A stretch of DNA of 39,367 nucleotides from a virus, in the IMG/VR virus record IMGVR_UViG_3300012944_000018, positions 1 to 39,367 of that record, one strand, 5' to 3'. Position numbers and translations under genes: made by a program. Below the pieces are notes generated by a model. The model was not told where the DNA came from. It did no database searches and saw only the letters and a list, made by a program, of their open reading frames with translations. Of the stretch, positions 13,359 through 22,755 are shown piece by piece. Within the stretch, counting starts at the first letter, position 1; the number at the start of each line of letters is the position of its first letter.

Positions 13359-14420
13359 TCATTCTTCGCATCCGAATACATAGCCGCTTAGTGTTTGAGT
13401 AGCGGTACCCGTTGCAGTGAGCACATTATTGACTGCCGCACTTAGAATGCCATTGCCCATCGGAGGACCTTGAATCACGCCATTAGCTGCGCCAAACGGA
13501 ATAACCAGGATAGTCGTACCGGCAGTATTATCCTTGAGCAGGACGTTACCGCCGATCGTACCGCTTTCCAACACATACCCCATGAGCCTGAACTTCTTGC
13601 CCGTGGCTGGGGTCCAGATCGTAATCTCGGCAGCTACCGATACCGCATTGATCGGAATAAACCTGTTGGGTGCACGTACACGGGAGAGATTCTGACCGTT
13701 CCATTGAGTCGCTTGGCATCCGGAGGCATCTATCACGGCCATCCCGTAAAGTGACCAGGTAGGAGCACCCGCAGGACCGGAGGTGTGATTGATTGAATGA
13801 AATCCGAAGGGCAGGTTGAGTGTCGAGGGCTGCAGGAATGGCACCTTCAGTACTGGCACACTGAAATCGTTGTAATAAAACAGCGCATTCAGCCCCTGGA
13901 AACTGATACTGATGGGAATGAACGTGCTGCCACTCAATGGGAAAACAGTGCGCGAGATACGTACGCCGCCATTATAAATGCTCGCACCGAAGCTGCCATT
14001 GATATCTAACTCCCAGACATAACCGTCTTGTACTGGAGTAACAGCTGTGAAACTTCCCGGACGGGTATAGAAGCCAAAACAGCGGTTGGTGTTGATACTT
14101 GGAGAAGCCTCGGTCTGAATCAGCGCGCCCGCCGTAATGGCACCAATCGAAGGCTCGAAGTTTTCAATTGTGCTGATGGCAGCAGCATTGGAAGCGGTTG
14201 TGCCTAAGGTCGTGACGAGGTTGCCACTCGCTTGTGTCATCGTCCCCGTGCCCGCCAGCACCGGGGATTGCCATCGACTCACGGTATCGATGACAGTCCC
14301 GTTGAAGTTGTCGATCATCAGCACATCGGGTAGCGGAGTGATCGGCAGCTGATATCCCACAATCGCGGGGGCAAACCGCAGCGGATTTCCCAAATCGTCT
14401 ACAAGCGTAACGTTCGGCAT
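13359..14420 (-). CDS. Virion appendage protein (LamG-like, head or tail fibre)
   Basis: Of 353 residues, residues 40-230 resemble a concanavalin/LamG-type beta-sandwich (VLMIDNFNGTVIDTVSRWQ, YVWELDINGSFGASIYNGG). The C-terminal 100 residues (ATGKKFRLMGYVLESGTIGG, VLLKDNTAGTTILVIPFG) match a small beta-domain seen in phage head fibres. The start shares a base with the terminase stop. It might be a carbohydrate-binding decoration; this is inference. Confidence 0.65.
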   Translation of the reverse strand: MPNVTLVDDLGNPLRFAPAIVGYQLPITPLPDVLMIDNFNGTVIDTVSRWQSPVLAGTGTMTQASGNLVTTLGTTASNAAAISTIENFEPSIGAITAGALIQTEASPSINTNRCFGFYTRPGSFTAVTPVQDGYVWELDINGSFGASIYNGGVRISRTVFPLSGSTFIPISISFQGLNALFYYNDFSVPVLKVPFLQPSTLNLPFGFHSINHTSGPAGAPTWSLYGMAVIDASGCQATQWNGQNLSRVRAPNRFIPINAVSVAAEITIWTPATGKKFRLMGYVLESGTIGGNVLLKDNTAGTTILVIPFGAANGVIQGPPMGNGILSAAVNNVLTATGTATQTLSGYVFGCEE

Positions 14421-16582
14421 TATTGCTCCGCCAGGCGCTTGGTCTTCGCCCGCTTGATCAGATCATTGATCGTCAGATCCGTTTCGAACCGCCGCGGTTG
14501 ATCCTTCGGCCTGTCCCTCACCATGGGGCGGGACATGCAACCATATCGTAGCGCATCACAATTGGACGCCACGACACCGGCGACAATGACCCAACCCTTA
14601 GTCTGGGCTAGACAATACACCGGTCGTCGTTCGTTCAATAGCTCTACGCGCACGCAACGCACGGGCTTTACAGTTTTGATGGCAGAAGCGTGAACGACTC
14701 GATGCGATAGCGCTCGTCTCATAAGACTGCCCGCACTGTTGGCAAGTCTTCGTAACGCGCTCGGCCATCTTGGCAGCCATGTGACGTTGCCAGTGGGAGC
14801 GATGCCACTCCTTCCCATCCTCACTTGCATGCCAGATAGCGGCGGCTTCTCGTGCAGCGAGGGAAACGACGGCATGAGGATCGGCGTGATGAGCCAAATG
14901 CTCAGAGCCTCTAATACACCGCAAGTTTTCGATCTGGTTGTGAGCGCGATCCTCATCGACGTGATGCACGTGATAGCCGTCTGGCACAGGCCCATGATGA
15001 TGAGTCCACACCATACGATGTAATCGCACGCCATTGCGCTGATAGTAAAAGCCGCAGAGGTAATAGTTGAGCCCCAGAAATCTTTGCTTGGTGGGGCTGA
15101 GCATAACAGGCGATTCAACAGTCTCTGGGCTGATGTCCATGTACCGTCGATCTCCAAGAACAAATGCGTAGCGGTACATTCTATCACTGACATATCGGAA
15201 AGCATCAGCCTATAGATCTGTGCTGATTCATGCGTCAATTCGCCTATCTTCTCTATGGGTTTTCCGTTGACCAAAGTGCCCGCTACAAAACAGGCGTGAT
15301 CCTCACCGTTTGTATCCACATCCTCGGTTTTGTGGGGATCATGCTGCAGGGCGGGTAAGGTGCGGATAAGATGAGGACAGGTACTGAAGACCTTCAATCC
15401 CTGCTCATTTGACTTCAACCGCTGCCTCACTTCATCCCATCCACCCATGGCACCGGCTCGAGCCACACGGGCATTGTCTGCGCGCCGCCAATTCAAATTC
15501 ATGCGCTCTGCAATGCTCGGACCGCCATCCCGCGAGAATGCAGCCGGGTCGATGACCTCGTCGGCCATGGATTCTTTGCCTTCAAGCTCCTTCACGCCAG
15601 CACCGACTTCCTGCGCCGTCATCTGACAGCCCTCATTGGCGGTCCCGTTCCAGCCATACCACTCGCGATAGATCACCAATGTTCCACGTGGAACAGATTG
15701 CATCTCTCCATCACTGACGGCTGCCCACAGTACGCAGAAAGGCCGGGCACTTCCCCAGTCGGCCATGCGAATCCGCGCCCAATGCTCCGGGATCGCGAAG
15801 GGCTGGCAGACATGACGTTCGATACTGAACTCAGGAAAGTAGGCGCCAGCAATGACGTTCCAATCACCTTCAAGCCAGGCCCGGACCAGCTCGACGCTAC
15901 CAACCAAGTAGAGCCGGTTCACATAGTCGGGGTCTTTGGCCAGCAGAATACGGTTGTCGCCAATCTTGGATGGGATGTAGACACTATGATGCTCTTTGCC
16001 GTTGGGCAACTGGCGCACCAAGCGCTTCATTCCAAGCGGAGCCGGATCAATGAAACGCTGCTTGATCCATTGATGACCAGGACCTCCTGGATTGGCGCTA
16101 AGGAGGAGCTGAATAGGTACGCCATGAGCACTGCGTAGGCACCCGAAGAGCCGATCAATCGGCGCAGGCATCGGGTAGTTGCCTGCCTCTTCGACCGCAG
16201 CATCACTGAGAGACTGTCCTTGGTACTTCTCGGCATCGGTCACGCTCTCGAGCGGTCGGAAGCGAATGCGGCCGCCATGAGGCATGGCAAAGAGCTTCTT
16301 TTGGTCCTGCCATCGAGCTCCAGTGGACAGGTAGATCTCTTTGGCACGCTCTATCAGATCGTCCTGTTGCGGCATCTCCTTGCGGAAGAAGACGGCATTG
16401 AAGCCTGGACCCCAGCGCTTTTCCTTGATCGCGTACTTGCCGAGAATGCCATCCGTCTTGCCACCACCGCGCGCGCCCCCGAACAGAATTTCGGGATAGG
16501 GACAGTCAATCAGCGCTTTCTGGGGACCGAGCTGGGGACGCCAGCTATATTCAGTTTGGACGGTCTGAGCTGTAGCGCTCAT
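14420..16582 (-). CDS. terL: Terminase large subunit interrupted by an intein
   Basis: The ATPase domain carries Walker A (FGGARGGGKT, residues 34-43 from the start at 16582), FRKEMPQQDDL and Walker B-like DAAVEEAGN. The nuclease domain follows with ADWGSARPF and DEVIDPAAFS. The final nuclease motif EDHA-CDALRY is split by a 244-codon intein (14561-15292). The spliced product from 16582 would be about 476 residues, normal for TerL. I start at 16582 because the earlier in-frame ATG (16612) lies deeper inside the small-terminase-like gene. Packaging should depend on correct protein splicing, since the interrupted motif is catalytic. Confidence 0.92.
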   Translation of the reverse strand: MSATAQTVQTEYSWRPQLGPQKALIDCPYPEILFGGARGGGKTDGILGKYAIKEKRWGPGFNAVFFRKEMPQQDDLIERAKEIYLSTGARWQDQKKLFAMPHGGRIRFRPLESVTDAEKYQGQSLSDAAVEEAGNYPMPAPIDRLFGCLRSAHGVPIQLLLSANPGGPGHQWIKQRFIDPAPLGMKRLVRQLPNGKEHHSVYIPSKIGDNRILLAKDPDYVNRLYLVGSVELVRAWLEGDWNVIAGAYFPEFSIERHVCQPFAIPEHWARIRMADWGSARPFCVLWAAVSDGEMQSVPRGTLVIYREWYGWNGTANEGCQMTAQEVGAGVKELEGKESMADEVIDPAAFSRDGGPSIAERMNLNWRRADNARVARAGAMGGWDEVRQRLKSNEQGLKVFSTCPHLIRTLPALQHDPHKTEDVDTNGEDHACFVAGTLVNGKPIEKIGELTHESAQIYRLMLSDMSVIECTATHLFLEIDGTWTSAQRLLNRLLCSAPPSKDFWGSTITSAAFTISAMACDYIVWCGLIIMGLCQTAITCITSMRIALTTRSKTCGVLEALSIWLITPILMPSFPSLHEKPPLSGMQVRMGRSGIAPTGNVTWLPRWPSALRRLANSAGSLMRRALSHRVVHASAIKTVKPVRCVRVELLNERRPVYCLAQTKGWVIVAGVVASNCDALRYGCMSRPMVRDRPKDQPRRFETDLTINDLIKRAKTKRLAEQ
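14561..15292 (-). other. Intein in TerL (splicing domains with an open, out-of-frame centre)
   Basis: Block A starts at Cys1: CFVAGTLVNGKPIEKIG. Block B is ECTATHLFLEIDGTW with its T-x-x-H. The C-terminal blocks F and G are RRPVYCLAQTKGWVIVAG then VVASN, followed by Cys+1. N-extein EDHA and C-extein CDALRY join cleanly. Between SAQRL and VKPVRCV, about 155 codons in this frame encode no recognisable domain; the same DNA in the -1 frame encodes an HNH endonuclease. The penultimate residue before the terminal Asn is Ser rather than His, which is found in some active inteins. Splicing is predicted, not shown. Confidence 0.9.
14598..15140 (-). CDS. HNH endonuclease nested in the -1 frame inside the intein
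   Basis: Core residues are GVRLHRMVWTHHHG, then GYHVHHVDEDRAHNQIENL (HNH_3-type, with His, His-x-Asp and Asn ligands), then a C-terminal zinc-finger-like CQQCGQSY and RFCHQNCKARA. The frame opens at 15179. I chose 15140 because a TTGGAG ribosome site lies 11 bases upstream; the ATG at 15104 starts right at the conserved domain and is the alternative. It ends at TAA 14598, inside the DNA that also encodes intein block F. Probably the homing endonuclease of the intein, expressed by internal initiation or frameshift. Confidence 0.85.
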   Translation of the reverse strand: MDISPETVESPVMLSPTKQRFLGLNYYLCGFYYQRNGVRLHRMVWTHHHGPVPDGYHVHHVDEDRAHNQIENLRCIRGSEHLAHHADPHAVVSLAAREAAAIWHASEDGKEWHRSHWQRHMAAKMAERVTKTCQQCGQSYETSAIASSRSRFCHQNCKARALRARRAIERTTTGVLSSPD

Positions 16583-16817
16583 CCCATTCCTTCGCCGGCA
16601 GCGGCTCGGCACTCACATCGCAGGGTTTAGTCGTCACCTCCATGTCGATCTGCTGCGGGATCAGCCGGGCATACATTTTGTAGAACTCGGTCTGATTGTC
16701 CTTGGCCCATTGCGCCATGGCATGTGTGCTGCCTAATCGCTGGAAGACAGCCAAGACGTTTTCCTTCGCGCTTTTCTGAGCTTTTCCCTTAGAACCCAGA
16801 GGACGACCTTTAGGCAT
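16551..16817 (-). CDS. Putative terminase small subunit
   Basis: The 88-residue protein starts with KGRPLGSKGKAQKS, a basic DNA-contacting arm, and continues AMAQWAKDNQTEFYKMYARL, a block found in small proteins directly before TerL in many phages. It overlaps the TerL start by 32 bases. It is shorter than classical small terminases, so function is likely but not certain. Confidence 0.7.
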   Translation of the reverse strand: MPKGRPLGSKGKAQKSAKENVLAVFQRLGSTHAMAQWAKDNQTEFYKMYARLIPQQIDMEVTTKPCDVSAEPLPAKEWDERYSSDRPN

Positions 16818-22024: not shown

Positions 22025-22755
22025 CTGCTGCCGAATTCAAGATCATCCAAGAGCGCTGGGCCCATGTGCTCGCCAATCCGCTGCAGCATGGCGCACATAC
22101 CCTGAACGATGATGAGACGACCACGTTCGATATGTGCGTCATGGAAGCCGTGTCTTACGTCGCCGGTCTGCCTTGGTCGGATCATCCAGCCTGCACCTGC
22201 CCGACCCTCACCGTATTCATGATCAGCTGGAACGACGGACTGCCATCTGATGCAGAGCGCGATCGACTGCTCAAGCCCCTGATCCCGCGATTGGTCGGCA
22301 CCCGCGGGTCAGACAAACTCGCCGAACGTCGCTCTTACATGGCGCTCGACTGGCTCATCCGCGCGCATACACCGCAGTGGTTGGAGTTGGTGCCGTCACT
22401 TCACGATCACGCCAAAGCTCTGCGCGCACTGCCCGAGATCGCCGACATGGCGGGTGCCACGGCCGCAGGTGAGCGCGTCAGGCTTGCACAGATTGACGCG
22501 GCTGCCGCGTGGGATGCCGCGGGGGCTGCCGCGTGGGATGCCGCGTGGGATGCCGCGTGGGATGCCGCGGGGGCTGCCGCGTGGGATGCCGCGTGGGCTG
22601 CCGCGAGGGCTGCCGCGGGGGCTGCCGCGAGGGCTGCCGCGAGGGCTGCCGCGAGGGCTGCCGCGGGGGATGTGCTCAAACCTACTCAGGCTTGGCTGCA
22701 GGCATCCGCGCTGGATCTGTTCGATCGCATGGTGGCACAAGGTGAGCCGTCATGA
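22021..22755 (+). CDS. Conserved protein with C-terminal XAA[W/G/R] repeats
   Basis: Of 244 residues, the N-terminal domain (1-150) reads [38 protein letters not shown], found in phage and actinobacterial proteins of unknown role. Residues 161-216 are 14 four-residue repeats ([16 protein letters not shown]), predicted helical. The C-terminus returns to normal composition. It starts by ATGA overlap with the previous gene. Confidence 0.75.
22501..22668 (+). repeat. Fourteen 12-bp tandem repeats in a coding region
   Basis: Units follow G(C/A)TGCCGCG(T/G/A)GG with no indels; only positions 2 and 10 vary. The first eight units use D/A with W or G; the last six use only A with R or G, showing two expansion phases. 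Being a multiple of three, it keeps the frame whatever the copy number, and all six frames stay open. Confidence 0.95.

Follow-up and report, generated by a model that had tools for sequence, protein, structure and literature searches.

Textbook inteins carry their homing endonuclease as a fused domain, which raises the question of how a gene can be read without interruption through an intein whose endonuclease is encoded in another frame of the same DNA. An earlier note, made from sequence alone, described such an arrangement in the TerL terminase gene of a viral contig (IMG/VR record IMGVR_UViG_3300012944_000018, 39,367 nucleotides, all of which is referred to here as the window). On the minus strand of the window, the TerL open reading frame (ORF) extends from 16612 to 14420 and is stop-free for 730 codons, with a GTG as the listed start and a possible alternative ATG at 16582, and its N-extein is 48–100% identical to those of relatives. 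The frame stays open through the intein exactly between the borders drawn in the earlier note (Table 1). Since Pfam alone did not recognize the window TerL and matched its intein only below the cut-off (E 0.04), we built our own HMMs of the intein N and C parts from four family members. Elsewhere in the window, positions 22500–22669 hold a tandem array of about 14 copies of a 12-base unit.

Table 1. Features of the TerL locus in the window, with the evidence for each
Feature	Position	Strand	Evidence
TerL N-extein (ATPase and most of nuclease domain)	15293..16612	-	phrog_979 1.4e-29, phrog_2 8.1e-27
Intein in TerL frame, 244 aa, CFVAGT...GVVASN/C	14561..15292	-	own intein N/C HMMs 3e-6 / 4e-7
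N-terminal splicing segment, residues 1-68 (block A; block B TATH at 15175-15164, residues 40-43)	15089..15292	-	pLDDT
Host-frame linker, residues 69-208, low confidence; same DNA encodes most of the HNH protein	14669..15088	-	pLDDT, pN/pS
C-terminal splicing segment, residues 209-244 (block F VYCLA, block G GVVASN)	14561..14668	-	pLDDT 81-97
TerL C-extein, first residue Cys (+1), stop included	14420..14560	-	matches TerL C-termini of relatives, e.g. L002-L005
HNH endonuclease gene, -1 frame relative to TerL, 180 aa plus TAA	14598..15140	-	HNH_3, phrog_15471, AF2
Shine-Dalgarno-like GGAG, 11 nt before HNH ATG	15152..15155	-	sequence; family-wide enrichment
HNH_3 domain (LHRMVW...GYHVHHVDEDRAHN...L)	14898..15026	-	Pfam match; invariant residues
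Zinc-finger tail CQQCG...FCHQNC	14670..14744	-	Cys conserved in A1 and A3

The insertion point lies beside a TerL nuclease motif (EDHA/CDALRYG), with C1 of the intein directly after EDHA and N244 directly before CDALRYG. Together with T40-x-x-H43 and the +1 Cys, these are the residues of a class 1 Hint intein, and C1, T40, H43, and N244 are invariant across 29 diverse inteins of the family. The intein is a single stop-free ORF rather than the two separate half-intein genes of a fractured split intein. That it is an in-frame insertion in the host gene is evident from an intact empty allele, the TerL of IMGVR_UViG_3300012929_000016 (L002), which lacks the insert and has flanks 97% identical to the window. 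Its junction reads EDHA-P-DALRYG, so that the window intein with the following Cys codon (735 nt) stands for one Pro codon. The TerL of another close relative (L030:3883-4230) has an in-frame insert of ~116 residues near query residue 302, with no recognizable intein ends.

In the AlphaFold (AF2) model of the TerL-frame insert, run with 25 relatives, the pLDDT is 91–98 over residues 1–60, 81 over residues 61–70, and 81–97 over residues 211–244, and mostly 41–58 in between, so that both ends of the insert are confidently predicted to adopt a Hint fold and the linker joining them to be disordered. Foldseek ranks DnaE inteins highest (probability 1.0), with E-values no better than 0.001, as expected from the disordered middle, and the closest PDB profile match of the family intein profile is the gp41-1 intein (5e-20). 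The earlier note gave ~155 codons of unrecognizable sequence between the intein blocks; the poorly predicted part comprises ~140 codons (residues 69–208).

The same DNA encodes an HNH protein in an ORF from 15179 to 14598, offset by +2 (equivalent to −1) from the TerL frame and with the ATG at 15140 as its likeliest start. The product matches PF13392 (HNH_3, 4.5e-14) and phrog_15471 (1.6e-31), which bears out the reading of this frame as an HNH_3-type endonuclease with a zinc-finger tail, and its HNH catalytic motif and DNA-binding module with conserved zinc-finger Cys are those of an HNH homing endonuclease. Its AF2 model has a mean pLDDT of 89.7; the top PDB match in a fold search, a weak one (E 0.08), is I-HmuI, which resembles it in its HNH fold. 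I-HmuI itself is encoded in a group I intron and not inside an intein. Double coding at both edges of the linker was proposed correctly, with some differences in detail. At the C edge, the codons following the zinc-finger tail double as the first strand of the C-terminal splicing segment, where CHQNCKARA overlaps KTVKPVRCV and not block F as previously suggested; block F (VYCLA) is instead overlapped by the end of the HNH protein, TTTGVLSSPD. At the N edge, the start of the HNH gene covers the end of the N-terminal splicing segment (residues 52–68), just past block B TATH. Judged by the predicted structures, the stretches in which each frame yields a sensible protein are complementary, apart from short edges where both are coding.

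HNH relatives were collected from IMG/VR and from bacterial and archaeal genomes irrespective of frame. Within a first set of 165 HNH genes (145 distinct), 124 lie inside an intein with the host frame open across the HNH gene, 113 of them in the −1 frame relative to the host and 11 in the opposite offset. Intein block matches occur in the same open frame at all 124 loci, with both N and C blocks at 118; the remaining genes lie between the halves of fractured split inteins (21/165) or have no intein blocks nearby (20/165). A second set of 60 distinct HNH genes, about nine of which re-sample contigs of the first, contains 43 genes in the “+1” form, 14 in the “−1” form, and three of the fractured form. 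Within this HNH family, the endonuclease is out of the frame of the splicing domain in the window and in every intein-associated relative; a homologue with its HNH in frame with the intein, the finding that the earlier note had set against its own reading, did not appear among the relatives (0/165 in the first set and none in the second). A search with the divergent Beijerinckia HNH as query returned almost nothing.

The two-in-one layout thus recurs in other phages and prophages, in well over a hundred sequences, and the −1 arrangement that had been proposed as the thing to look for is present in 113 genes of the first set. It is shared by the cultured Tetrasphaera phage TJE1 and Acinetobacter phage Highwayman, the complete genome of Rhodobacteraceae phage LS06-2018-MD07, and bacterial isolate genomes such as those of Rhizobium lusitanum and Beijerinckia mobilis. 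In TJE1, Highwayman, and LS06-2018-MD07, no separate HNH gene is annotated within the TerL gene. Host genes that looked unlike TerL turned out, where checked, to be TerL. Several relatives depart from the window in other respects. The B. mobilis TerL (L239:2779-5103) has the same intein type at a different site, in the ATPase Walker B region (HDAAW/C...HN/CDELAAW). One TerL ORF in a Clostridium MAG (L237:1331-4732) apparently contains two inteins, one near the ATPase Walker B motif (FVDELDE) and the other downstream, each with its own out-of-frame HNH. Patescibacteria TerL ORFs of ~1400 codons (L242:289-4494 and L243) combine an in-frame insert containing LAGLIDADG with an intein that has an out-of-frame HNH. 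In L046 (3393-3417), the TerL coding changes frame with a short overlap, possibly through an assembly error or a frameshift.

Expected numbers of host-frame stops were obtained by shuffling synonymous codons within each HNH gene. For the window gene alone, 2.0 stops are expected (P(0) ~0.05), which makes its open host frame only mildly unlikely; it is the family-wide result that carries the observation. Over the 113 open “−1” genes, 252 host-frame stops are expected and none is observed, and the 43 “+1” genes of the second set likewise have none where 354 would be expected. These counts should not be read as P values, because the open groups were defined partly by their openness and the sequences are related. 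As the classification relied on frame openness, 41 HNH genes with both frames closed served as a control (5.96 stops expected and 5.59 observed per gene), and these controls, along with the presence of intein blocks in the open frame, take away most of the circularity.

In a comparison of 25 non-overlapping sequence pairs, the HNH frame has a pN/pS of 0.32 and the host frame one of 1.25, which indicates purifying selection on the HNH protein and none on the host-frame linker. Across the family, pN/pS is 1.27 for the linker and 0.40 for the intein N block, the latter pointing to purifying selection. At the C edge, synonymous change in the HNH gene is halved (0.57 versus 0.27) and pN/pS in the host frame declines from 1.27 to 0.83, both of which are expected for double coding.

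Programmed −1 ribosomal frameshifting, raised earlier as an alternative, would have a minority of ribosomes make a fusion of the N-intein and the HNH protein, and with the HNH in the −1 frame in 113 of the 124 nested loci of the first set, most of these genes could be reached by a −1 shift. The prevalence of the −1 offset may, however, reflect a frame of HNH genes that is poorer in stops to begin with: in unconstrained relatives, 5.6 stops per HNH gene fall in the −1 host frame versus 14.4 in the opposite one. Slippery heptamers are not enriched in the host phase (7/99 loci versus 8 and 6 in the other two phases), a well-supported clade has its HNH in the opposite offset, and fractured and free-standing relatives possess starts of their own. 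An ATG or GTG start near the domain is present in 94 of the 98 “−1” genes considered (4/98 have neither), and a strong Shine-Dalgarno site accompanies it in 35/98, versus 6.2 in shuffles and 7 and 5 in the other frames; 63/98 are without a strong match, and TJE1 has none. With Shine-Dalgarno sites enriched at HNH starts and slippery sites not, separate production of the HNH protein by internal initiation appears from these sequence patterns to be the best reading and is favored over frameshifting, which is unlikely.

The other alternatives concern the insert itself. Two compensating sequencing or assembly errors could have split one in-frame intein-endonuclease, and the window does consist of one viral contig. 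Against this, the layout is repeated in cultured phages and in well over a hundred contigs, and codon-level patterns of selection are seen in both frames; its recurrence in the complete genomes of cultured phages excludes such paired errors. An RNA-level intron carrying the HNH ORF comes to mind from the group I introns that often harbor HNH genes, but a search of Rfam gave no match even at a relaxed threshold, and the open host frame bears intein blocks, so that we consider this very improbable. The insert might also have ceased to splice and remain in TerL as a tolerated loop. TerL is an essential protein, and the insert breaks a nuclease motif, while the invariant C1, TxxH, and terminal N, Hint ends predicted at pLDDT >80, and the constrained N block of the family likewise argue for a splicing element. 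The window intein is shorter than those of its relatives between blocks A and B, and a loop of this kind has been proposed for the methylase insert of phage ShiLan, which has the same frame relation but lacks Hint blocks flanking its HNH (PMC11855218). We regard the retained loop, too, as improbable.

In the window, a contiguous TerL intein very probably has its homing endonuclease encoded by a gene of its own that overlaps the intein coding sequence in the −1 frame. TerL would be read straight through as one precursor, with the N-extein followed by the Hint N half, then a flexible linker devoid of meaning, and finally the Hint C half and the C-extein, and the Hint halves, given their intact catalytic residues and predicted fold, would splice the exteins into TerL. 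The HNH protein would be made separately by internal initiation within the intein coding sequence and would cleave TerL genes lacking the intein, at the nuclease-motif site, after which recombinational repair would copy the intein in, a homing step suggested by the empty-site allele and the purifying selection on the HNH. The linker DNA would be held by the HNH in one frame and in the other only by the need for zero stops, with both frames probably encoding functional protein at the two edges.

The nearest precedent found is the ShiLan methylase insert. The 2025 paper on this phage describes out-of-frame HNH inserts without splicing domains in phage methylases, thought to stay in the non-essential protein because such domains are lacking, and its authors saw no ribosome-binding site (PMC11855218). 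Both systems conceal a zinc-finger HNH within an insert across which the host frame stays open, are patchily spread, and have Pro at +1 in the uninvaded allele, and in our own check ShiLan had the same relative frame (the third) as the window and no Hint blocks around its HNH. The window insert differs in being a Hint intein, with splicing blocks, in TerL, and in belonging to a family with enriched Shine-Dalgarno sites. Fractured split inteins such as gp41-1, with a free endonuclease gene between the halves, were reportedly described by Dassa and colleagues in 2009. They share with the window a separate endonuclease gene between Hint halves, as the window's own HNH family does in 21 loci, whereas in the window the intein is contiguous and both halves lie in one uninterrupted ORF. 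Canonical large inteins, whose endonuclease insertion sites have been studied (PMC6801210), have the same Hint fold and catalytic residues, likewise encode the endonuclease within the loop that joins the Hint halves, and may also have TerL as host, but their endonuclease is normally an in-frame domain. This is also the case for the mycobacteriophage TerL inteins that splice (PMC5050341), which are sited in the ATPase domain in contrast to the nuclease-domain position in the window. A full-text literature search returned no contiguous intein with an out-of-frame endonuclease; a preprint outside that search (“Non-Canonical Architecture”, Gosselin et al. 2025, 10.1101/2025.01.02.630785) may report some cases.

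A large set of inteins thus keeps its endonuclease as a second gene in the same DNA, which leaves the linker constrained only to lack stops. These inteins could plausibly link fused inteins with fractured split inteins and free-standing homing genes. They also offer a ready supply of natural inteins able to accommodate long linkers of arbitrary sequence, and they make up an extensive natural collection of overprinted genes in the viruses of bacteria. Annotation misses their endonucleases, as in the three phage genomes named above.

On the unrooted HNH tree, the architectures need 20 changes versus 43.7 when shuffled; the “+1” form makes up one clade plus one outlier, and fractured and free forms appear in several places. 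This scatter is consistent with repeated switching between the nested, fractured, and free states, in a direction that the unrooted tree does not fix. The nested independent endonuclease gene in a contiguous intein that the earlier note recognized is accordingly upheld, but as a common and apparently stable architecture, interspersed with fractured and free-standing forms, rather than as the “intermediate” it was taken for. TerL inteins with this HNH family may constitute a widespread lineage of their own, whose endonuclease is in every case encoded by an independent overlapping gene and never forms an intein domain, with fractured split inteins arising from this lineage when the host frame gains stops between the halves; we regard the odds of this as even. 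The nearest neighbor of the window HNH on the tree, 49% identical to it, is an unannotated free-standing HNH gene that overlaps the end of an intein-less TerL in Brevundimonas phage Poludnitsa (L082, 2459-3034).
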